This document shows positions 1 to 53,354 of a DNA stretch of 64,000 nt, one piece after another. Position 1 is the first letter of the stretch. Each line of letters opens with the position of its first letter. The stretch is from Armatimonadota bacterium (lineage in GTDB: Bacteria; Armatimonadota; Fimbriimonadia; Fimbriimonadales; Fimbriimonadaceae): the NCBI GenBank assembly GCA_017303935.1, contig JAFLBD010000002.1, positions 850,784-914,783 of the forward strand. The letters run 5' to 3'. A program made the position numbers and the translations under genes. Under the pieces are notes generated by a model, which worked only from the letters and a program-made list of their open reading frames with translations, was not told the origin of the DNA and made no database searches.

Positions 1-942
1 GTCGCAGGAATGGCCGAGCAGGTTGCGAACCTGCTGGTTAGCGACGAGTCGAAAGGCGACCTCCCTCCCCAGTCGATGTTCCTGAAGGACATCATCTCCG
101 GTCATATCGACGCCGACCGAACCGACTACCTGCTTCGGGACTCGCACCACTGTGGAGTGGAATACGGTCGCTTCGACCACCGACGCCTCATCGAGTGTTT
201 GACCTTACGTCAACTGAGTGGTGGAGGAGTTGAAATCGCTATCGAGGCCGATGGAATTCACATGGTCGAGGCGCTCATCATGGCTCGCTTCCAGATGAAC
301 GCCCAGGTGTATTTCCACCGGATTCGTCGCATTTACGACCACTTCCTGATTGAGTATCACGACGCTTTGGACAAGAGCAGGGACGGCTTACCGCGAGATG
401 ACGTTCTGTTGCTTAACGACGTGACGATGATGAATAGGATGTATGCCGACGGAGCCAGACCGCCTGAGGGATGGGAGACTTCCTGGAACGAAGGATACAC
501 CGGGGATGAGTCCGCTGACGAGGCGGTTGCTTTGAGGAAGCGGGCATACTTCGCGAAGCGAATCCTTGAGCGAAATCACCCCAAAGTAGTGTTTCAGACT
601 GGGGATTTTGCCAATGCCAAGGCGCTCGATGAGGCGCGAAGGGTTGCAAAGGCACTGAAAGCAATGTATACTGATGTCTACATATATTTGGACGAGATGG
701 GGAAGAAGCCTGTCGCCATCCACAAGTTCGAAGTGCCGGATGGGGACGACTTGGACTTCAAGGGTGCCGAGTTTATGGTCATCGACAAGGTGGGTCAAGA
801 GAAGCTTGTGACCGCCGACAGCAAGGTTTTGTCACGAATCCCTCGCGGCTTCCGGTGCCTGCGTTTGTTCGCCGACGTGGCGAACCAGGCTCAGAAGCAG
901 GAGATTGAGGCGTTTGTGGCCAAGGTGAGGAGTGGTAAATGA
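1..942 (+). CDS. HD-domain phosphohydrolase (dNTPase-like), C-terminal part, cut by window edge
   Basis: The reading frame is open from base 1, so the gene begins upstream; about 313 residues are visible. Near the start, HIDADRTDYLLRDSHHCGV followed by YGRFD matches the conserved block of SAMHD1/YwfO-type HD phosphohydrolases, which hydrolyse dNTPs or related nucleotides. The metal-binding HD motif should lie in the missing N-terminal part and cannot be checked. The stop overlaps the start of the next gene (ATGA), so the two are translationally coupled. In Bacillus an HD protein (YwfO) and YwgA are neighbours, and that pairing is repeated here in front of the DISARM genes. The family call is firm; substrate and role in defence are inference. 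Confidence 0.8.
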   Translation, partial: VAGMAEQVANLLVSDESKGDLPPQSMFLKDIISGHIDADRTDYLLRDSHHCGVEYGRFDHRRLIECLTLRQLSGGGVEIAIEADGIHMVEALIMARFQMNAQVYFHRIRRIYDHFLIEYHDALDKSRDGLPRDDVLLLNDVTMMNRMYADGARPPEGWETSWNEGYTGDESADEAVALRKRAYFAKRILERNHPKVVFQTGDFANAKALDEARRVAKALKAMYTDVYIYLDEMGKKPVAIHKFEVPDGDDLDFKGAEFMVIDKVGQEKLVTADSKVLSRIPRGFRCLRLFADVANQAQKQEIEAFVAKVRSGK

Positions 943-1511
943 AGGTGAAAATTGAGTTCGATTGGAGTTTGAGTCCAGAACAAGCAGTTCTGGCCGAGGT
1001 CGTGAAGCGGAGTCACGAACTTAAGCATCCCCTGGGTCGCACGGCGTTGCAGAAGATTCCTTACTTCCTGAAGCGCCACGGTGTTCCCCTGTCTTACTCA
1101 TTCGACCTTTACCACTATGGGCCGTTCTGCCAGGAAATCCTGTGGGATGCCGAAATGCTGGCCTCAATGGGAGTGATTGTCGACAAGGGCGGCTACAACG
1201 GCGGTTCTAGTTACGAGGTTGGGGAGAGCTTTGAAGCTCGAGTTACCGAACATCGAGAATTCTTGAATGAGCATGCCGACAACATCACGGCAGTGGTGAA
1301 CTTGCTTTCAGGCTTGGACGCCTCCACCTTGGAAGTAGCTGCGACCATCGACTATTTCTATCGTTATGTCTCGGCCAGCGATGCTCCGAGCCCACGCAAG
1401 CTGGCCGTTTTGGAGCGTTTTTATGAGGCCAAGCCCAAATACAAAGCTAAGCAGAAGGACGTAGAGCGACTGTATGACCAAATGGCAGCCATCGGCATGG
1501 TCGGGGCGTAA
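939..1511 (+). CDS. YwgA-like protein
   Basis: A 190-residue soluble protein with no signal peptide. RTALQKIPYFLKRHGVP (about residues 34-50) followed by YHYGPF (58-63) is the typical N-terminal block of YwgA-like proteins, which resemble the DUF4065/Panacea helical fold. No enzymatic motif is seen. The start overlaps the stop of the HD gene (ATGA) and its stop shares one base with the drmA start (TAATG), so it is locked into the HD-YwgA-drmA-drmB-drmC transcript. Panacea-type domains often act as antitoxin or regulatory partners, so it may control the HD enzyme. That is inference; the molecular role of YwgA is not known to me. Confidence 0.65.
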   Translation: MKVKIEFDWSLSPEQAVLAEVVKRSHELKHPLGRTALQKIPYFLKRHGVPLSYSFDLYHYGPFCQEILWDAEMLASMGVIVDKGGYNGGSSYEVGESFEARVTEHREFLNEHADNITAVVNLLSGLDASTLEVAATIDYFYRYVSASDAPSPRKLAVLERFYEAKPKYKAKQKDVERLYDQMAAIGMVGA

Positions 1512-4500
1512 TGTCTGTTCCCGAATCCCAAATCCGCGACGAGTTGCTTGAACTCGCCATCCGCGACCTTCTAGGGCCAGCAGGTGGACCGCACGAGGAG
1601 CTATCCCTCGACGCTGAGTACGGTCGGCTCATGAAGCCGACCGACCGGTACTTGCTCGGCATGCTCGCGCCTCGAGACACCGCTCTTCCCGAGACTGAAC
1701 TCAACGGCCCTGTTCCGACCGAAGTTGAAGACGACACGACCGATGACAACGTCGACCTCCAAACTCCAAAGGGCAAAGTAGACCCAGGCAAGTCGAAGGG
1801 AGGCGGGTTTGGAAAGTGTGTTGAGGAGGATGACGAGGAACCTGAAGTCGACCCGAGCAAATCCTACTTTCCCTCATCATTTGGCTTGACCTTTTGTGTC
1901 CGGAAGGACGTCGGCCGCATTGTCGTACAGGGCGAATGGGGACAATATATTCGCGAAGAGAGCGAGACCCTGACCGCCAAGGACGACCCGAACAAGAAGC
2001 TCATCGTTTGGAAGCGCTATCCGCGTGGTGGCAAGGTTGAGTTGACTTTACGAGCAGGGCCCATTCGAGGTCTCCAACTCGATGCAGGATTCCCGAATGT
2101 CGTGGTCACGGGCCGTGTGGTCGAGCGTGAGGACGACTGGCTTGTCACCCTGCTTCTCACCAACAACCAGGGTCCCGCAGAGAGCAAGGTCGAGACCATC
2201 ACCCGATGGTTGTTCCAGCCGGTTCTAAGCGTGGAGTCCTTGGATGGCTCCGGCGCCTTCATCAAGCGGCGCCGACGCATTCGGTACGAGAACCTTGACC
2301 CGTTTGAGAAGAACGAGGTTGAGGAACTTGAGATGTCGTACCGCAAGCGGGTCGAGTTCGCGGTCGGCCACGGAGTTGCTGTCGATTGGAACCGCAACCT
2401 CGGCAAGTGGGATTCTACCGACCGAATCTGGACGACTTGCGTTCCGGTCACGGAGGTTCCCAAGGCCACCCACAGCGGGCCCGAGAACGAACCGCTACTT
2501 AAGGGATTGGTCACCGACATGAAGGTGCTGTCGGAGACTCCAACCGATGAACTTAAAGACAAGCTCATGCCGCTTGTCGACGGCTATCGAAAATGGATTG
2601 AGAGCGAGGAGGCTAGAGTTGAGGTTGCCACCGAGGGCTTGGGCGAGTTTCGAGATGCAACTGAGCGAGTGCTCAAGCGAAGTCGCGAAGCCGCCGACCG
2701 CATCGAAGCGGGGATTCAGATTCTGCTTGACGATGAGAAGGCCGCGGATGCCTTCCGATTTGCGAACCGGGCGATGTATCTCCAGCGCGTCCACACGATG
2801 CTCTCTGAGGCTAAGCGCCGCGAGGAGTCGAAGACCCTGGCCGACTTCGACGAACCCAAGAACAGAAGTTGGCGCGCATTCCAGCTCGCATTCGTGTTGT
2901 TGAACCTGCCGTCCTTAGCGAAGCCAGGGCACTCTGACCGATTTGAAGACGGGGCAAACGAGCAGGTTGCCGACCTCTTATGGTTCCCAACGGGTGGCGG
3001 AAAAACGGAAGCTTATCTCGGCCTGACGGCATTCACGCTCGGCATCCGCCGACTTCAGGGTGATTTGGGTGGTTTGCGAGCAGATACCGGTGTGGCAGTC
3101 CTGATGCGCTACACGCTCAGGCTCTTGACCCTTCAACAGTTCCAGCGAGCAACCGCGCTTATCTGCGCTTGCGAGAGCATCCGACGTGATGAACCGAGTA
3201 AGAAGTGGGGTACTTGGCCGTTCCGAATCGGATTGTGGGTTGGGCAAGCAACCACTCCAAACAAGACGTCTGATGCTCAGGACCAAGTGAGCAACGATGG
3301 GTGGGGCCGTGGTTCGGTTCGGCAGCTCACCAACTGCCCGTGGTGCGGTAGCCCCATCGACTTCAAGCACAACGACATTGAGGTCGTCAATTCGGTTGCA
3401 ACCAAGAGGACGTACATCTTCTGCGGTGACGATGAGGGGATTTGTCCATTCAGCAAGGCGAACAGTCCGAAGAACGGTTTCGACGGCGGCTTGCCGGTGG
3501 TGGTGGTTGACGAGGAAGTCTATCGGCTGCTTCCCAGTCTCGTTATCGCAACGGTCGACAAGTTTGCGCAGATGCCGTGGAATGGAGAAACCCAGATGCT
3601 TTTTGGCCGCGTCGACCGGTTCTGCGTTCGACACGGGTTCTTGTCGTCCGAGAGCGACCACGACTCGAACATGCACCCAGCGCATCGAGGACTGCCTGCC
3701 GTTACTGTGCAGCCCCACGGCAATCTCAGGCCTCCCGACCTCATCATCCAGGACGAGTTGCACCTAATCAGCGGGCCGCTGGGTTCTCTCGTGGGAATCT
3801 ATGAAACGGCGATTGACGAACTCTGCTCCTGGGAACACGATGGAGTGAAGGTTCGCCCGAAGGTCATCGTGTCAACCGCCACGGTCAGACGCGCAGGCGA
3901 CCAAGTCAATCGGCTCTTTGCGCGCAACCTTAAGGTGTTTCCACCAGCGGGGATTGATGTCGAGGACAACTTCTTCAGCAAGCAACCACAAGCGACTCCC
4001 GACAATCCGGGCACCAAATACGTTGGAATCTGCAGTCCCGGCCGGAGGCTGAAAGCAGCTCTGATTCGCTCCTATTGCGCGGCGATGGCTTCGGCGCAGT
4101 TGATGTACGACCCTTCACGATACGGCAAGACTGCAGACCCCTGGATGACGGCGGTCGGCTACTTTGGGTCTATTCGAGAGCTGGCGGGCATGCGCCGTCT
4201 TATCGACGACGACATCCATCAGAAGCTTTGGAGGATGGACAGAGTCGGTCTAGGACAGCGGTCGATTCGGTCGTACGAGGAGTTGACTTCGCGGAAGTCG
4301 GCCGGCGACATACCTTACATCTTGGACCGCCTTGAGAAGCAATTTACAGTGGAAAAGACTGGGGTTACTCCATACGACATCCTGCTCGCCACGAACATGA
4401 TTTCAGTCGGTGTCGATGTGAAGCGCCTTGGTCTGATGATTGTTGCGGGGCAACCCAAGATGACCGCCGAATACATTCAGGCTACTAACCGCATTGGCCG

Positions 4501-5050
4501 TTCTCATCCGGGTTTGGTGTTCACCGTTCAGAACTGGGCGCGACCTCGCGACCTGTCTCATTACGAGAGCTTCAACTACTTTCACTCGACTTTCCACAAG
4601 CATATTGAGACGCCTTCATTGACGCCATTCTCGGATGGAACTCGAGAGCGAGCCCTGTCTGCCGTGCTGGTCAGCGGAGCGAGGCTACAAGGTCGCGAGC
4701 TCAATCCGAACTCCTCGGCTTCAACCGTGGACAACCACCGCCCCATAACCGATGTGGTCGTCGACGCCATCGTTCGGCGAGCAGAAAACGTACAGAGCGC
4801 AGAACTCGGTCAGCTTGTGCGGAGTGAGGTTCGCAGCCGGGTCGACAAGTGGAATCTTGAGGTGCGAAGGCGCCGCGACGCTGGCGCCTCGGTTGCCTAC
4901 AGGCAGTCTGGAACTGAGGTGGCCCTTCTCAAGAAACCCGACGACGGGAAGTGGCAAGACTTCACATGCCTCAACTCGCTCCGGGAAGTTGAGCAGAGTT
5001 CCGCGTTCGTGATGCACGAGCTGAGTTCGAACTCGGAGGATGAGGAATGA
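1511..5050 (+). CDS. drmA: DISARM helicase-related protein DrmA
   Basis: A 1179-residue superfamily 2 helicase. Walker A is FPTGGGKTEAYLGL (about residue 490), the Walker B equivalent is QDELHLI (about 747), motif III-like STATV lies near 787, and the C-terminal helicase motif ATNRIGRSHPG lies near 990. A zinc-finger-like cluster (CPWCG, then a CG and a C pair) sits between Walker A and B around residues 614-650. The long N-terminal region before the helicase core, the size and the adjacency to drmB and drmC identify DrmA, which in DISARM forms a complex with DrmB and loads on phage DNA ends. The stop overlaps the drmB start (ATGA). No frameshift is seen. Confidence 0.9.
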   Translation: MSVPESQIRDELLELAIRDLLGPAGGPHEELSLDAEYGRLMKPTDRYLLGMLAPRDTALPETELNGPVPTEVEDDTTDDNVDLQTPKGKVDPGKSKGGGFGKCVEEDDEEPEVDPSKSYFPSSFGLTFCVRKDVGRIVVQGEWGQYIREESETLTAKDDPNKKLIVWKRYPRGGKVELTLRAGPIRGLQLDAGFPNVVVTGRVVEREDDWLVTLLLTNNQGPAESKVETITRWLFQPVLSVESLDGSGAFIKRRRRIRYENLDPFEKNEVEELEMSYRKRVEFAVGHGVAVDWNRNLGKWDSTDRIWTTCVPVTEVPKATHSGPENEPLLKGLVTDMKVLSETPTDELKDKLMPLVDGYRKWIESEEARVEVATEGLGEFRDATERVLKRSREAADRIEAGIQILLDDEKAADAFRFANRAMYLQRVHTMLSEAKRREESKTLADFDEPKNRSWRAFQLAFVLLNLPSLAKPGHSDRFEDGANEQVADLLWFPTGGGKTEAYLGLTAFTLGIRRLQGDLGGLRADTGVAVLMRYTLRLLTLQQFQRATALICACESIRRDEPSKKWGTWPFRIGLWVGQATTPNKTSDAQDQVSNDGWGRGSVRQLTNCPWCGSPIDFKHNDIEVVNSVATKRTYIFCGDDEGICPFSKANSPKNGFDGGLPVVVVDEEVYRLLPSLVIATVDKFAQMPWNGETQMLFGRVDRFCVRHGFLSSESDHDSNMHPAHRGLPAVTVQPHGNLRPPDLIIQDELHLISGPLGSLVGIYETAIDELCSWEHDGVKVRPKVIVSTATVRRAGDQVNRLFARNLKVFPPAGIDVEDNFFSKQPQATPDNPGTKYVGICSPGRRLKAALIRSYCAAMASAQLMYDPSRYGKTADPWMTAVGYFGSIRELAGMRRLIDDDIHQKLWRMDRVGLGQRSIRSYEELTSRKSAGDIPYILDRLEKQFTVEKTGVTPYDILLATNMISVGVDVKRLGLMIVAGQPKMTAEYIQATNRIGRSHPGLVFTVQNWARPRDLSHYESFNYFHSTFHKHIETPSLTPFSDGTRERALSAVLVSGARLQGRELNPNSSASTVDNHRPITDVVVDAIVRRAENVQSAELGQLVRSEVRSRVDKWNLEVRRRRDAGASVAYRQSGTEVALLKKPDDGKWQDFTCLNSLREVEQSSAFVMHELSSNSEDEE

Positions 5051-6906
5051 GCCGGTCCAACGTAGGTCAGGTGAGACGAAGTCAAGCCATCAGCCCGTTC
5101 GGAGTTGGGGCGATGGTCGACTTGCCGTACGTGTCCGGAATTGTGCTCGGCCTCGACTACTGGAAGACGCGCGCCGAGGATGAAGTCAACGAGCCACGGC
5201 TATTGCAGACCATTCGACGGATGTATCCCACGGTGGAGCGCATCATGGCACCGGCTCTCTTGCACGAAGACTCTTCGGGGCAGCAAGTCGAGACAGTTGG
5301 TGTTCCGGTTGCTCCGTTTCCTCGTTGGATGGTCTGCTCGGCTTGTCGACTACTCGCCCGCTATGACTCGGGATACTTCCAGTCGATTTCAAATCCTTAC
5401 CGACCGGAAGAGTTCAAGTACGTGCATAAGCACTGCACGAAGCAGCCAAACATCGCCGACAAGAACAAGCGACCGGTCATTCCAGCCCGCTTCTTGGTGG
5501 CCTGCGAGAACGGGCATCTCAACGACTTCCCATGGCGTGAGTTCGTCCACGGTGGCCCGTCGGACTGCAACAAAGAACTCCGACTCATCGAATATGGCCT
5601 GGTAGTTGAGGCATCCGACATCGAAGTCACCTGCGCATGTGGTGCCAAGCAGCGCATGTCCAAGGCCTTCGGAACGAATTCGCTCCTCAACATCATCCGG
5701 CCAAAGTGCGATGGGCACCATCCTCATCACCGCTTGAGGAGCGAGGTTGCGGCTGATGACTGCAACGAGGTGCCACGGACAATTTTGCTGGGCGCTTCTA
5801 ACAGCTGGTTCCCAATCACCCTGTCTGCCATTTCCGTTCCCAGCGCCATGAGCGACTTGGAGCAAAGGCTTCAAGACAACTGGCCCGAGTTTCGCGACAT
5901 GGTCGATATTGGCGACCTGAAGTACGTCATGCGAAGGAACCAGTTCGACTGGCTAACTGGGCTCGAAGCTGAGCCAGTATGGGAGGCAATCGGCAGGGTC
6001 AAAGAATCAAGCGAATCTGAGGAAATCGGTTCGCTCAAAGACCCCGAGTGGACTGTCTTGAGCGCGGCAACCCCAACGCGGCATCCTTGGCTGCGGACCG
6101 CAATCACTCAACCACCTCCCGGATTCGATGATGTCATCGAAAAAGTCGTCTTGGTTGAGCGGCACCGCGAAGTGAGGGCGCTTGTAGCATTCTCAAGAAT
6201 TGATGCCCCTGGCGACATGTCTGAGTTGGATTCGCTTCCAGCGGAGCGCAGAGCCAGGTTGTCCCGAGCTGCTCCCAATTGGGTACCTGGAGTTGAGTTG
6301 CGTGGCGAAGGAATCTTCATCCAGTTCCGGGAGGATGCCCTCCGTAGTTGGGAAGGGCGCGACGATGTCAAGCGGAGACTTGGGGTTTTGAACAGCGGGC
6401 ACGACCTCTGGTGTGACCGGCGACCATGGCTTGACCCAAGGCCGCCCGGTCGCCCGGCTCGCTACTATCTGCTGCACTCCCTAGCCCACCTCCTCGTTCG
6501 CGAGATGTCGATTCGGTGCGGCTATTCTGCGGCCAGCCTGCGAGAGCGGCTCTACGCATCGATTTCCCACGATGGAGGTGGCAACATGGCCGGAATCCTC
6601 ATCGTCACATCGACGCCGGATAGCGAGGGGACGTTGGGTGGCTTGGTAGGGCTTGGGCAGCCAAATGAGTTGGCACCACTGTTGCGGTTGGCACTTGAAC
6701 GTGCGTCCTTGTGCAGCTCGGACCCTCATTGCTCCAGCCACGACCCAAAGCACGATGCGAAGCTTCATGGGGCTGCATGCCACAGCTGCCAGTTTCTCCC
6801 CGAAACGTCGTGCGAAACGGGAAATCGGTACCTTGACCGGGTTTTGGTGGTGCCAACCTTGAACGAACCCGAAGTGGCATTCTTCAGGGAGCATCACCTT
6901 GAATGA
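5047..6906 (+). CDS. drmB: DISARM protein DrmB (DUF1998)
   Basis: A 619-residue protein. The C-terminal part has the DUF1998 signature HSLAHLLVREMSIRCGY (about residues 476-492) and a later GGNMAGILIVTSTP. Several cysteine pairs look like metal sites: CSACR near residue 97, CACGAKQ near 196, and a Cys-rich stretch near 557-590 ending in CHSCQF. DUF1998 proteins pair with large helicases in DISARM, Druantia and Dpd systems; DrmB is the obligate partner of DrmA. It overlaps drmA by ATGA at its start and drmC by 8 bases at its end, so strict co-translation is likely. Confidence 0.9.
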   Translation: MSRSNVGQVRRSQAISPFGVGAMVDLPYVSGIVLGLDYWKTRAEDEVNEPRLLQTIRRMYPTVERIMAPALLHEDSSGQQVETVGVPVAPFPRWMVCSACRLLARYDSGYFQSISNPYRPEEFKYVHKHCTKQPNIADKNKRPVIPARFLVACENGHLNDFPWREFVHGGPSDCNKELRLIEYGLVVEASDIEVTCACGAKQRMSKAFGTNSLLNIIRPKCDGHHPHHRLRSEVAADDCNEVPRTILLGASNSWFPITLSAISVPSAMSDLEQRLQDNWPEFRDMVDIGDLKYVMRRNQFDWLTGLEAEPVWEAIGRVKESSESEEIGSLKDPEWTVLSAATPTRHPWLRTAITQPPPGFDDVIEKVVLVERHREVRALVAFSRIDAPGDMSELDSLPAERRARLSRAAPNWVPGVELRGEGIFIQFREDALRSWEGRDDVKRRLGVLNSGHDLWCDRRPWLDPRPPGRPARYYLLHSLAHLLVREMSIRCGYSAASLRERLYASISHDGGGNMAGILIVTSTPDSEGTLGGLVGLGQPNELAPLLRLALERASLCSSDPHCSSHDPKHDAKLHGAACHSCQFLPETSCETGNRYLDRVLVVPTLNEPEVAFFREHHLE

Positions 6907-7687
6907 TTCGTATGATGTCGTGGCCGATGTGGCAGCGAAAATTGCGAGAACACTCTCGGCTGGCAACTTGAGCAAACTGCTGCAACAGGCAAATCGCGAG
7001 ACGCCTGCCGTATCATTTCTGAACACGTTGGCCGCGGACTGTCGCCAACTAGAGCAGCGTTTGGTGCTGCAAAGTTCAGCTTCAAAGCTTGGTTTGGATT
7101 GCCTAGACCTTCGAGCAAGTGAGGTTGCAATGGTGGTTGCTGCTGCTCGTAGACAGATGACCGCGACAAGCCTGGAGGTCGTCTGGACGGGCCCCGCAAG
7201 CGTGGCTTCGGCCATGCGCGGGACCGAGCAGGTCTTGCTTGAGGTTATCGACAGCGCCAAACGAGAGTTGTTGGTGGTCGTCTACGCCGCATTTGATATT
7301 CGAAACATCGTCGCCGCGATTGACCGAGCGATAGCCCGTGGGGTTGTCGTCACCGTAGTGGTCGAGAGTCTCAATCCAAAGACAGGAGAGCAGAAACCGA
7401 ACTTCATGGCCTCATTTTCGGAGCCAATCCGAACAAGGTCCCGGCTACTACATTGGCCGCTCGCCACTCGCGACACCGATGAGAATGGACGAGCAGGATG
7501 TTTGCACGCGAAGGTTGCCGTTGGGGACCGAGAGGTCGTATTCGTCACGTCGGCCAACTTAACGGGGGCCGCCATGCGCGAGAACATGGAGATGGGGCTT
7601 CGAGTCGACAACTTCGAATTGGGTGAGCAAGTCGTCACCCACTTTGAGCGGATGCGAGATGATGGCGTCCTGGTCCAGCCGACCTAG
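6899..7687 (+). CDS. drmC: DISARM phospholipase D-like protein DrmC
   Basis: A 262-residue protein with one HKD motif: HAKVAVGD (about residues 202-209) followed by SANLTGAAM and the E of the family pattern. A single HKD per chain implies an active site formed by a dimer, as in Nuc-type PLD nucleases. It is the third gene of the drmABC core; in tested DISARM systems drmC was dispensable for some phages. The start is a TTG inside the drmB 3' end; no in-frame ATG lies nearby. The 3' end overlaps the convergent methyltransferase gene by four bases. Confidence 0.88.
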   Translation: MNDSYDVVADVAAKIARTLSAGNLSKLLQQANRETPAVSFLNTLAADCRQLEQRLVLQSSASKLGLDCLDLRASEVAMVVAAARRQMTATSLEVVWTGPASVASAMRGTEQVLLEVIDSAKRELLVVVYAAFDIRNIVAAIDRAIARGVVVTVVVESLNPKTGEQKPNFMASFSEPIRTRSRLLHWPLATRDTDENGRAGCLHAKVAVGDREVVFVTSANLTGAAMRENMEMGLRVDNFELGEQVVTHFERMRDDGVLVQPT

Positions 7688-8886
7688 GTTATCGACTCAC
7701 GGTACGAGCGAAGCGCATCCAGAAAGCCCGGCGGGAATCTGAGCGAGCTGTTCTCTGCTCGAGTAACAAAGCCATCACAGGCCCTGAAGCTGAGAGGAAC
7801 CAGAGGCTCAGTTAGGAACTGTTCTAGAGGAGTCAACGGCTCTAGGTCAACGTGGGTAGGCAGGTTGACTCCAAAACGACCACTGCCAACGTTCCACGCT
7901 GCAGTGGGCCAACTGCCATCAACGACAGGAACTCCATCAACTTCCGGTGACTCAGTCGAGCTTGAAGTCGCAAGCCCCTCACCAATCCAAGCCGACATTC
8001 GAACATTGACTGCGTTCCCAACGAGTCGCCAGCGTGCGTTTCTACCCAAGCCCTCGGCCCGCTCAGTCCATCCGGGCTCGAACCCTTGAAGTCGCTCAGC
8101 ATCGGCTATGGTCGGAGTGCCAACTTCACCGGATGGAAGTAGGATGGCCGGAGAACTTTTGATGCCGAGTCGAGACCCAGGCTTCAGAGGGGGAATGGCA
8201 TCGCAAACCAAACCGGACCCGGTGTTTCCTTCCGTCGAGTAGAAACCGATGGTGTTCATGCCCACGACTGGCTTGCGTTCGTTTCGGGACTCAGCGGCAA
8301 AGTCCCTGAACATGACCGACCGAGGGTCTCGTTCTCGAGATGCATACAAAATGACTCGAGGGCGTCGTTGAGGGATACCGAACGAGCGGGCGTCAATCGT
8401 GCGGTATGCCCACCGGAAACCGGCATGTTCCAAAGCCTCCGTGATTTCCTTCATCGCCGCACCTTTGCCAAGCCTCAGCATGAAAGGCACGTTTTCAAGG
8501 AGCAAGTTCTTTACTTCACTTGATGCGACGACCTGCAAAACGTGACGAATCAACCCTGATGACTTTCCGTCCAACCCAACCATCGGCCCGGCTTGCGACA
8601 GGTCGACACATGGGAATCCTGCGGTCACCAGGTCGATTGCAGAGTCAATTCTTTTCAAGGAAAGAATATTGTCGTGGACGCTTACCAAAGGGAAGCGATG
8701 TCGAAGGACCACCTTCGCGGCCTCGTCGATTTCGTAGGCACCTACTGTGTGGTGTCCTGCAGATTCAAGGCCTTGTTCTATTCCGCCGACGCCCGCGAAC
8801 AGTGCGAGCACATTCAATCTCTGGCGCGGACACTGTGTAAAAGCACTGTCCGCGCTTACCTCATTTGCAGTCAGTGACATCGCCAT
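7684..8886 (-). CDS. drmMII: DNA (cytosine-5) methyltransferase, DISARM DrmMII type
   Basis: A 400-residue m5C methyltransferase with all main motifs: motif I FAGVGGIEQGLESAGH (about 30-45), motif IV GFPCVDLSQAG with catalytic Cys93, motif VI ENVPFM (131-136), motif VIII QRRPRVILYAS, and motif IX/X near the C-terminus (RLQGFEPGW, VGNAVNVRM). In class 2 DISARM this enzyme marks host DNA as self. Here it runs convergent to drmABC and overlaps drmC by four bases, so it has its own promoter upstream of 8886. No restriction endonuclease lies beside it, which favours DISARM over an orphan RM gene. A slightly later start at MSLTAN is possible. Confidence 0.88.
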   Translation of the reverse strand: MAMSLTANEVSADSAFTQCPRQRLNVLALFAGVGGIEQGLESAGHHTVGAYEIDEAAKVVLRHRFPLVSVHDNILSLKRIDSAIDLVTAGFPCVDLSQAGPMVGLDGKSSGLIRHVLQVVASSEVKNLLLENVPFMLRLGKGAAMKEITEALEHAGFRWAYRTIDARSFGIPQRRPRVILYASRERDPRSVMFRDFAAESRNERKPVVGMNTIGFYSTEGNTGSGLVCDAIPPLKPGSRLGIKSSPAILLPSGEVGTPTIADAERLQGFEPGWTERAEGLGRNARWRLVGNAVNVRMSAWIGEGLATSSSTESPEVDGVPVVDGSWPTAAWNVGSGRFGVNLPTHVDLEPLTPLEQFLTEPLVPLSFRACDGFVTRAENSSLRFPPGFLDALRSYRESIT

Positions 8887-9004: not shown

Positions 9005-9565
9005 CTAGCTTCCTCCCTGTTCGAGTGTTGACCGATAGAATGTTGAGCGTGAACAACCGAGGATTCGGCATGCTTCGTCGACTGGCATGTTGCGGTCTCC
9101 ACGTAACTTGCGTGCCAGCTCCAGTTTTTTGCCTGTGAGGACGGCTCGGCGACCGCCGCATCGTCCGCGCGCACGGGCGGCGGCAAGGCCAGCGAGTGTA
9201 CGTTCGCGGACGAGGTCCCTTTCAAACTCCGCAAGGCTCGCTACGATGTTGAAGAATAGTCGACCGGATGGATTGGTTGTGTCGATTCCTTCGGTGATTG
9301 AGCGGAAGCCGACTCCGCGTTCCCGAAGTTGCTCCACCAGGTCAACCAGGTGTCGCAACGAGCGACCAAGTCTGTCCAGGCGCCAGACGACGATTGTGTC
9401 ACCATCACGGGCAAACTCCAACAGTTCGTTGAGACCCGGCCGGTCGATGACCGACCCGGAGACCTGGTCGCTGTAGATTCTGTCGCAACCGACCTGGTTA
9501 AGTGCGTCGGTTTGAAGAATAAGGTTTTGTTCGTGAGTGCTTGTGCGCTGGTACCCAAGGTTCAT
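9005..9565 (-). CDS. Serine recombinase, resolvase/invertase family
   Basis: A 186-residue small serine recombinase. The N-terminus GYQRTSTHEQN carries the family R-x-S motif (Arg7, catalytic Ser9). WRLDRLGRSLRHLVDLV is the usual DxLxR block, ASLAEFERDLVRERT forms the long helix, and DEACRILGCSRSTFYR is the C-terminal DNA-binding HTH. Length and domain order match Tn3-type TnpR or Pin/Hin invertases. No transposase gene is adjacent, so this may be the remnant of a transposon or a resolution module of the island. Its presence supports horizontal origin of this stretch. Active site residues are intact. Confidence 0.88.
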   Translation of the reverse strand: MNLGYQRTSTHEQNLILQTDALNQVGCDRIYSDQVSGSVIDRPGLNELLEFARDGDTIVVWRLDRLGRSLRHLVDLVEQLRERGVGFRSITEGIDTTNPSGRLFFNIVASLAEFERDLVRERTLAGLAAARARGRCGGRRAVLTGKKLELARKLRGDRNMPVDEACRILGCSRSTFYRSTLEQGGS

Positions 9566-50391: not shown

Positions 50392-52197
50392 TTAGTCTTT
50401 TGGTCGGTAGGGCCGGTTCGGTCTTGAACTACCACCCGAGCCATAAGGCTTCTTGGGACGGTCGTCCCGGTTGCCATAAGGCCGCTGAGGGCGATCTCCG
50501 CTTGGACGCTGTGGCCTGTCACCGTATGGTCGTTGCGGCCGATCTCCAAAGTCTCGCTTTGGTCGATCGTCCCGATTACCGTAAGGTCGCTGAGGGCGAT
50601 CGCCGCTCGGTCGCTGTGGCCTGTCACCGTATGGTCGTTGCGGCCGATCTCCAAAGTCTCGCTTTGGTCGATCGTCGCGGTTTCCATAAGGTCGTTGCGG
50701 GCGGTCTCCGTTCGGACGCTGTGGCCTGTCACCGTATGGCCGTTGCGGTCGATCACCAGAGTCTCGCCGTGGACGATCTTCTCGATCACCAAACGAGCGC
50801 TGTGGTCGATCTCCAAAATCTCGTCGTGGACGATCTTCTCGGTCTCCGTACGAACGTTGAGGTCGATCACCAAAGTCTCGTCGTGGACGATCTTCTCGGT
50901 CTCCAAACGAGCGTTGTGGTCGATCACCAAAGTCTCGTCGTGGGCGATCTTCTCGGTCACCAAACGAGCGTTGAGGTCGATCTCCAAAGTCTCGTCGTGG
51001 TCGATCTTCTCGGTCTCCGAATGAGCGCTGTGGTCGATCTCCAAATTCTCGTCGAGGACGATCTTCTCGGTCCCCAAACGAGCGTTGTGGTCGCTCTTCA
51101 CCATCGCCAAACGTCCGTTCTCCTCGCTCGCGTTCGCGCTCCATCGTCCGGCGTCGGTCTTCAGGTCGTGGCCGTGCATAGCTGCGCTGAACGTCCGGTC
51201 CACTCATTTCGAGCAGTTGGTTAATCTCAGCGACTCCGAGCCGGCGTGCTTGTCCAGAAGCCAGGCCCTTGATCAATAGGTGCCCAATTCGAACCCGGGT
51301 GAGTTCTTCGACTGGGTGACCCACGGCGTCGCACATCAACCGGATCTGACGGTTCCGGCCTTCGTGGATCACCATTTTGAGCTTGGTGGTATCCGTGCGC
51401 CGTTCGTAATTCAACAATTCGACATGAGCTTCGGAAGTCCACCGCCCCATGATGCAAACCCCTTCTCGGAGCCGCTTCACCGACTTTTCTTGGACCTCGC
51501 CCTTGACGATCACGTCGTACTCTTTTTCGACACCGAATTTCGGGTGAGTCAATCGATCTGCCAGGTTCCCGTCGTTTGTACAGATCAAGAGCCCTTCGGT
51601 GTCCATATCGAGCCTTCCAACAGGGCGAAGCATAACGCCCACATCAGGAAGATAATTGACGATTGTCGACCGCTTTCGGGGGTCGCTGAGTGTGGTCACG
51701 ACGCCCTTTGGCTTGTTGACCAAGTAGTACAGAAGGCGCTCAGGTTGAACCGGAAATCCGTCTACCTTGACGATATCGGATTCGGGGTCAAGCTTGTGGC
51801 CCTGCGTGGTGACGAGTTGGTCATTGACCTCAACTCGGCCCTCTGAAATGAGTGCTTCGGCAGATCGGCGACTTGCAACGCCGCATCTAGCGAGATATTT
51901 GTGCAGTCGCTCAAGCTCAACTCGCACTGGTCGGTCAGAAAAGCTGCGTTCGCGTCGCTCACGGTCCGGTCGAGGACGATCATATCTCGACGCCGATGGA
52001 TCGGCATGGTTGATCCCTTGAACTTCGTTAAAAAGGTGCTTGGCAGATCGACTTGGTGGTCGTCCAAAGCCTGGTCGTGCGGGCCTGCTCGGTCCGCTGG
52101 AGTTGGGTCGAAATGATTTCGAAGGGCCAGCGTCACCCCGACGCGGGCCTGCAGACTTTCCTCGGTTGGAAAAGTCGCCGTTATTTGGTTTTCTCAA
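50392..52197 (-). CDS. rluB: Pseudouridine synthase RluB/RsuA-type with long repetitive Arg-rich tail
   Basis: About 601 residues from TTG 52197. After a basic leader, an S4 domain ([20 protein letters not shown] near 105) and the RsuA-type catalytic core follow ([20 protein letters not shown] with the catalytic Asp; [19 protein letters not shown]). The core ends near residue 335. The last 260 residues are a disordered Arg/Asp/Gly repeat: first six copies of a 19-residue unit with [12 protein letters not shown], then three copies of a 35-residue unit with [19 protein letters not shown] overlaps the dacA stop (TTGA), the same coupling as the rest of the operon. The tail probably binds RNA. Confidence 0.88.
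50470..51110. repeat. Two nested tandem-repeat arrays inside rluB
   Basis: GATCTTCTCG recurs at 50775, 50832, 50889, 50946, 51003 and 51060, an exact 57-base period. GTGGCCTGTC recurs at 50511, 50616 and 50721, an exact 105-base period. Both keep the reading frame. The arrays encode the tail of RluB and explain the long false frames on both strands here. Confidence 0.92.
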
Positions 52198-53354
52198 TAG
52201 ATCCTCGTACGCTTTTTGTAGAGCAGTGCGCCACCAGCGACTGCCGCTCCAAGAGCGTACCACGCAAAGGCCGGAATTCGACCTTCAAAGTTGAACATTT
52301 GTGGCTTTACATCCACACTTTCTAGCGCGACTACCGGGACTCGGACCTGAAATCCCGTGCCGTCATCGGCAACCGCATAACCCAGCTTTTGCCCAGCCTT
52401 GATCGGTGCTACCGCGCGGTTCTCGAGCCGGAAGGTGAACTTCGGCTTGGTGCCAACCTTGCTCAATAACTGCGTATCGACCAATGGGGCGAGCCCCAAA
52501 GTGGGAACCGTTCCGCCGGTGATCGGTACCTCGCAAAGGAGTTCGCCGGGCCGGGCGGAGAGTCCGACTTCGTAGTTTGAGAACGACCACTTCAGCATCG
52601 CATCCTGATCGACTTGGGTATCCGGCGAATTCATGATCACGGTGATAACACGGAACCCATTGCGCACTGCGCTACCCACGTAGCAGTGACCAGCATCGTT
52701 TGTAAAGCCAGTCTTGATCCCATCCGCGGTTGGGTCTTTGAGCAACCACTTGTTGCGCGTCTCTAAGAAAGTATCTTCTTGATTGATTGACCTTTGGATC
52801 ACGCGCTGCCTGGTTTTGGCGACTTCGCGAAACATCGGATTCTTCATCGCAACTCGCGCAATTCGGGCGAGGTCGTGTGCGGTGGTCACGTGCTCCTTAT
52901 CGGGGAGTCCGTGGGGATTGTGAAAGTGCGTTCCAGTGCATCCAATCTCCTTGGCGCGCTCGTTCATCCGATCGGAAAATGCGCTGACTGAACCTGCTAG
53001 ACGCACCGCCGCGGTGTAGCAAACGTCATTTGCGCTCCGGAGAATCATTGCGTAAACCGCGTCTTCAACCGAAATTTCCTCGCCGGGCCTGAGATGAAGG
53101 CTCGAACCCTCGACCGAAGTCACGCTTGCCGGCGCTTTCAGAAGATCGAACAGGTCCTTGCTTTCCAAAGTCAGCAACGCCGTCATGATCTTTGTAGTGC
53201 TTGCTGGATACCGCGGCACATCAGCATCCTTTTCCCAAAGCACTTTGCCCGTGGCTGCGTCGATGATGATCGCGCTTTTGCCCTGCACCGTCGGCGCCTG
53301 CGCGAAGCATGAACCGAAGAAAAAGAAAGCGAGAATGGCAGCAGGGAACTTCAT
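52194..53354 (-). CDS. dacA: D-alanyl-D-alanine carboxypeptidase (PBP5/DacA type)
   Basis: A 386-residue penicillin-binding protein that trims the terminal D-Ala of peptidoglycan stems. The signal peptide is FPAAILAFFFFGSCFAQ. The catalytic triad motifs are SxxK in YPASTTKIMTALL (Ser52, Lys55), SxN in RSANDVCYTAA and KTG in DGIKTGFTNDAGHC. The C-terminus has the PBP5-associated beta domain and a membrane helix (WYALGAAVAGGALLY) ending in a basic tail, where PBP5 has an amphipathic helix. It overlaps scpB (ATGA) and rluB (TTGA). Confidence 0.9.
   Translation of the reverse strand: MKFPAAILAFFFFGSCFAQAPTVQGKSAIIIDAATGKVLWEKDADVPRYPASTTKIMTALLTLESKDLFDLLKAPASVTSVEGSSLHLRPGEEISVEDAVYAMILRSANDVCYTAAVRLAGSVSAFSDRMNERAKEIGCTGTHFHNPHGLPDKEHVTTAHDLARIARVAMKNPMFREVAKTRQRVIQRSINQEDTFLETRNKWLLKDPTADGIKTGFTNDAGHCYVGSAVRNGFRVITVIMNSPDTQVDQDAMLKWSFSNYEVGLSARPGELLCEVPITGGTVPTLGLAPLVDTQLLSKVGTKPKFTFRLENRAVAPIKAGQKLGYAVADDGTGFQVRVPVVALESVDVKPQMFNFEGRIPAFAWYALGAAVAGGALLYKKRTRIY

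Follow-up and report, generated by a model that had tools for sequence, protein, structure and literature searches.

An HD-domain phosphohydrolase (HD) and a YwgA-like protein (YwgA) are encoded side by side within a class 1 DISARM (defence island system associated with restriction-modification) locus of an Armatimonadota bacterium of the family Fimbriimonadaceae. The locus lies at the beginning of a 64,000-nucleotide stretch of contig JAFLBD010000002.1 (G000:C2:850784-914783), hereafter called the window. The gene pair has been added to the operon, with drmMI on one side and drmA on the other; it recurs in other DISARM loci and in bacteriophage exclusion type 3 (BREX-3) operons, and it is an old two-gene unit which mostly stands alone in ordinary neighbourhoods. 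Given the order of the genes, their homology, the intact catalytic residues of HD, its almost constant pairing with YwgA and the recurrence of the pair, we consider it rather likely that HD-YwgA is a portable cassette of a deoxynucleoside triphosphatase (dNTPase) and its restrainer, recruited into DISARM and BREX-3 as a backup effector.

Structure and class of the locus

The window begins inside the locus, with the 5' portion of the HD gene outside it; L002 is a stretch that includes the sequence upstream of the window. The genes are as follows.

L002:4252-7392, upstream of the window: drmD (SNF2 helicase); NF038317 1248.8 bits, cut-off 610
L002:7389-11495, upstream of the window: drmMI adenine methyltransferase; PADLOC DrmMI E = 0, 1417 bits
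L002:11492-12181, minus strand: AbiGi-like gene between drmMI and HD; PF10899 3.2e-6
Window 1-942, plus strand: 3' part of the HD gene; Pfam HD 3.9e-10, HD_assoc_2, phmmer matches to PDB structures
Window 939-1511, plus strand: ywgA, 190 amino acids; DarG by PADLOC and NCBIfam, PDB 7yk3 by profile and fold
Window 1511-5050, plus strand: drmA, DISARM helicase, 1179 amino acids (class 1 size); NF038325 1324.9 bits, cut-off 950, PADLOC DrmA 8.7e-302
Window 5047-6906, plus strand: drmB (MZB/DUF1998 protein); NF038324 631.1 bits, cut-off 240, Pfam MZB 5.3e-9
Window 6899-7687, plus strand: drmC (PLD-family nuclease), TTG start; PADLOC DrmC 1.3e-48, Pfam PLDc_2 7.1e-19
Window 7684-8886, minus strand, convergent with drmC: DNA cytosine-5 methyltransferase; Pfam DNA_methylase 1e-38

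All five class 1 DISARM genes are present in order and at full length as judged with hidden Markov models, the complete order being drmD, drmMI, the AbiGi-like gene, HD, ywgA, drmA, drmB and drmC. Since drmD and drmMI lie directly upstream of the drmABC part, the locus is a class 1 DISARM (class descriptions from PMC9142583 and PMC12458937) to which HD and ywgA have been added, and drmE is therefore not expected; no match to drmE was found among the genes examined at the locus. The preliminary description, for which the window had cut off drmD and drmMI, had assigned the locus to class 2, with HD/YwgA standing in place of drmE. Nothing beyond the truncated window favours such a replacement, and with drmD and drmMI directly upstream it can in effect be dismissed. 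Class 2 in its usual form (drmMII and drmE) was ruled out by the same flanking genes and by the cytosine methyltransferase, which fits PADLOC MTase_II (1.3e-116) far better than DrmMII (7.8e-19) and is best described as a generic type II methylase. Cytosine methylases likewise adjoin class 1 DISARM in the plasmid loci L010, L011 and L014.

The overlaps of 1 to 8 bases that had been described for HD, ywgA, drmA, drmB and drmC were found as stated: the five genes are co-directional and overlap successively by 4, 1, 4 and 8 bases, the HD/ywgA junction being ATGA and the ywgA/drmA junction TAATG with one base shared. The minus-strand AbiGi-like gene breaks the run, so that HD-ywgA-drmABC is not continuous with drmD-drmMI. 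This gene stands alone on the opposite strand and has a sigma-70-like promoter match of 10/12; the promoter matches close to HD are consensus matches only. The locus is followed by a serine recombinase (window 9005-9565, minus strand) and preceded by a type I restriction methylase (L002:368-1939, minus strand), flanks resembling those of a mobile defence island.

The HD and YwgA proteins and their pairing

The full HD gene (G000:C2:850295-851725, equal to L002:12296-13726) has 489 bases before the window and codes for 476 amino acids from its likely start, Met-35 (G000:C2:850295) of the longest open reading frame (L002:12194-13726), which was chosen from the lengths of homologues. With phmmer the protein matched PDB entries 2hek (8.9e-42), 2o6i of the EF1143 type (9.2e-38) and SAMHD1 (3.8e-25), and the dGTPase family models of NCBIfam matched weakly, far below cut-off. 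In the alignment with SAMHD1 the catalytic positions are occupied by R100, H103, H155/D156, H159, H164, H175/E176, D236, Y240 and D244, and the set is complete in the full gene. These residues are conserved in no fewer than 74 of the 76 homologues in the alignment; with R237, which three homologues replace by K, the lower limit for the SAMHD1-type residues is 73 of 76. By sequence, HD is thus a SAMHD1/EF1143-type protein with the HD fold and a full set of metal and catalytic residues, and is predicted to hydrolyse deoxynucleoside triphosphates (dNTPs).

The C-terminal part of the window YwgA matched DarG in PADLOC (5.7e-13) and NCBIfam (1.6e-11), and three further YwgA proteins also matched NCBIfam DarG. 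A profile of 72 YwgA sequences matched the DarG chain of 7yk3 in the PDB (2.1e-8); the next matches were to 40 residues of coiled helix in apolipoprotein A-I and were taken as compositional. Aligned by hhalign with the DarG encoded beside the HD-YwgA pair of L086, YwgA scored 98.6 % (6e-16). The AlphaFold model (predicted local distance difference test, pLDDT, 94.3) had the 7yk3 chains as its sole Foldseek matches in the PDB at E < 0.001 (1.7e-5, probability 1.00). Pfam, SocA_Panacea included, gave no match to the window YwgA, and 28 of its 72 relatives match SocA_Panacea. These sequence and model comparisons place YwgA in one group with the C-terminal domain of DarG (five methods) and with SocA_Panacea. 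The protein is mildly acidic (isoelectric point, pI, 5.9) and has no nucleotidyltransferase match in Pfam or NCBIfam. Among viral models, Foldseek paired the YwgA model with the uncharacterised archaeal virus proteins A0A3Q8Q497 of Sulfolobus polyhedral virus 2 (TMt 0.66) and A8TKI0 of SSV4, both with probability 1.00 and E > 0.001; the YwgA fold may have counterparts in these viruses.

Panacea antitoxins bind diverse toxins in complexes (PMC8832971), and the studied members of the DarG C-terminal/SocA-Panacea group bind their toxin partners directly. By analogy, YwgA would restrain HD by direct binding. The earlier suggestion that YwgA holds HD silent gains from this relationship to direct toxin neutralisers, and homology is its basis.

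A genome scan with an HD alignment as the query kept 80 loci; an earlier scan with a single HD sequence had given no matches. In 77 of these 80 closest relatives ywgA lies directly or nearly directly downstream of HD, a figure which describes the subfamily of the window HD and not all HD proteins, as the loci were chosen by similarity to it. Of the remaining three, L044 and L047 stop where their contigs end, and in L077 the sequence is broken about 300 bases or less from the end of the contig. The hosts belong to many bacterial phyla and to the archaea, and besides ywgA no gene recurs beside HD in more than five of the 80 loci. Distant HDs of prophages (L122-L136) are without ywgA. Searches against plasmids and phages gave no match for YwgA and only distant HDs for HD. 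The HD of L006 (G047, from the same order as the window) is identical to that of L092, an Armatimonadetes metagenome-assembled genome (MAG).

The pair is thus not, as had been supposed, special to this operon. ATGA-type overlaps of 4 bases between HD and ywgA are common also outside DISARM and are therefore no evidence for a DISARM link; the overlap of ywgA with drmA, unlike that of HD with ywgA, is counted as such. Neighbourhoods range from a tRNA synthetase, a housekeeping context (L042), to DarTG with a DUF1156-type methylase (L086) and type I restriction genes (L064, L120). In L110 and L121 (7998-9828) the pair lies among phage tail genes, and in L120 (8001-9868) a phage-like gene accompanies the restriction genes; in all three it is apparently phage or prophage cargo.

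Nesting in DISARM and BREX-3 operons

The slot between drmMI and drmA was surveyed in 291 Armatimonadota genomes and, outside this phylum, in plasmid loci. It was at least partly visible in six Armatimonadota class 1 loci, three of which (window, L029 and L025) hold HD-YwgA or YwgA. L029 (G214), whose contig matches L040 (Fimbriimonadaceae MAG), has HD-YwgA inside its DISARM operon. In L025, where the contig ends, YwgA immediately precedes drmA, and HD-YwgA is probably nested there also. A distant YwgA-HD pair in the window's family (L038:248-2151) has reversed order and is divergent from the truncated drmA that it adjoins. Recurrence beside drmA, which in several phyla would have supported a distinct system, was found in L029/L040, in L025 as far as the contig end and in L038 in reversed form; in the Armatimonadota genomes and plasmid loci surveyed, the DISARM cases were all from Armatimonadota.

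Elsewhere in Armatimonadota the slot holds Fic (L026), PIN and others (L023) or an unknown protein (L027). In eight plasmid class 1 loci it holds XisH/XisI (L007), GIY-YIG (L008), an ATPase with an O-methyltransferase, three hypotheticals or nothing, or the operon is rearranged. A Schlafen AlbA_2 remnant was also found among the class 1 contents. The drmMI-drmA junction is a variable slot, and the window locus differs from these eight plasmid loci by having HD, ywgA and the AbiGi-like gene in it. No literature linking DISARM with YwgA was found in the open-access literature.

The order brxF-brxC-HD-ywgA-pglXI was found in three BREX-3 loci (L084, L103, L105) of MAGs labelled Bacillota, Deltaproteobacteria and BMS3Abin06. 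In L103 brxC and HD are additionally separated by one to two small genes, and in L105 overlapping start and stop codons link HD-YwgA to brxC. In L138 and L145, BREX-3 loci without the pair, the same brxC-pglXI slot holds a Schlafen AlbA_2 gene.

Loci that carry HD-YwgA form no group in the DrmA tree, in which the window is placed by L026, L025 by L023, and L029 by L027/L038. Defence-linked rows of the HD tree need 10 changes, with clustering no greater than with shuffled labels. Because carriers are scattered on the first tree and defence-linked HDs on the second, the cassette must have been gained or lost repeatedly. Between the window and L029 the HDs are 50 % identical, whereas DrmA, DrmB and DrmMI are 31-36 % identical; this fits a cassette moving independently, but also an enzyme that evolves more slowly.

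Elsewhere in the window, at 50392-52263 (minus strand), lies the gene of an RluB-like pseudouridine synthase whose C-terminal repeat is long and degenerate.

Proposed role and alternatives

In the proposed mechanism YwgA, translated from the overlapping start codon, would restrain HD, the effector; once freed, HD would destroy dNTPs and halt phage (and host) DNA synthesis. The old stand-alone pair would have been recruited by several methylation-based defence operons, at drmMI-drmA in DISARM and at brxC-pglXI in BREX-3, where it probably serves as a backup effector. Our guess is that HD is set free either by DrmAB or when a phage inhibits the core system.

The nearest tested precedent is Clover (CloA dNTPase and CloB nucleotidyltransferase), in which a dGTPase is restrained by its partner (PMC12265719). 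The two-gene logic of an HD dNTPase effector silenced by its operon partner, as proposed for HD-YwgA, is alike, but YwgA is DarG C-terminal domain- and Panacea-like and no nucleotidyltransferase, and the window HD is nearer to EF1143/SAMHD1 than to dGTPase models. YwgA shares its sequence profile and fold with the DarG C-terminal domain of DarTG (PDB 7yk3), whereas HD-YwgA is without macrodomain and DarT and the partner is an HD enzyme. PanAT/SocA-Panacea systems (PMC8832971) likewise consist of small operons of two genes, one of them coding for a promiscuous neutraliser, and differ in the Pfam assignment that the window YwgA itself lacks; 'HD domain' is absent from the text of that paper. A 2026 BREX survey describes nuclease backup effectors, and its main text has no mention of dNTPase, DarG, YwgA or phosphohydrolase (PMC12839542).

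Several points weigh against this proposal. About 70 of the 80 nearest HD-YwgA pairs do not adjoin recognised defence genes, as read by eye and with selected queries rather than by a full defence scan, and the pair can thus exist without them; such solitary pairs had been foreseen as a possible objection, although nesting in BREX-3 in three genomes and in further DISARM loci stands beside them. The eight plasmid class 1 DISARMs and the 11 other BREX-3 loci that were examined all lack HD-YwgA, which is therefore a minority accessory; its DISARM carriers were found in Armatimonadota only. The HDs of the three BREX-3 loci are closely related and may reflect one recruitment, and toxicity of HD without YwgA is a prediction.

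A less probable but serious alternative is that HD-YwgA acts independently, as a defence or toxin-antitoxin-like cassette with its own trigger, for which the drmMI-drmA slot is a safe landing site without functional connection to DISARM. Its stand-alone occurrence in most genomes, its apparent phage or prophage carriage (L110, L120, L121) and the acceptance of unrelated genes such as Fic, PIN, XisH/XisI and GIY-YIG by the slot agree with this, but the start/stop overlaps tie it to drmA in the window and to brxC in L105, the identical BREX-3 slot is occupied in three genomes, and co-transcription suggests shared expression at least. It is improbable that this is a housekeeping pair for the dNTP pool, comparable to ywfO/ywgA of B. 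subtilis, which is carried along in a defence island and takes no part in defence. Many pairs do lie among housekeeping genes, as in L042, but YwgA had no match in the 36 other genomes of the window's family searched and is thus not a housekeeping gene of this family, and the pair, its active sites intact, has entered two types of defence operon. Very improbable is an action of YwgA on DrmAB rather than on HD, in which a DNA-mimic-like YwgA would occupy the DNA site of DrmAB and tune DISARM activation. The title of Deep et al. 2023 (cited in PMC12170906) names single-stranded DNA mimicry by the DarG C-terminal domain, YwgA is mildly acidic and its gene overlaps drmA, but YwgA occurs beside HD in almost all cases, nearly always without DISARM.

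Recruitment of HD-YwgA as a backup effector remains the preferred reading. Only tentatively do we extend it to a very widespread, so far unrecognised dNTPase-antitoxin immune module of bacteria and archaea, which in DISARM and BREX-3 would also be a nested backup effector released when the core is blocked or engaged. If the proposal is true, nucleotide depletion would become a further effector activity associated with DISARM and BREX, the conserved YwfO/YwgA-type pair would gain a function, and the DarG/Panacea neutraliser group would extend to an HD enzyme. The junctions between methyltransferase and core genes (drmMI-drmA, brxC-pglXI) are marked as places in which to seek accessory effectors.

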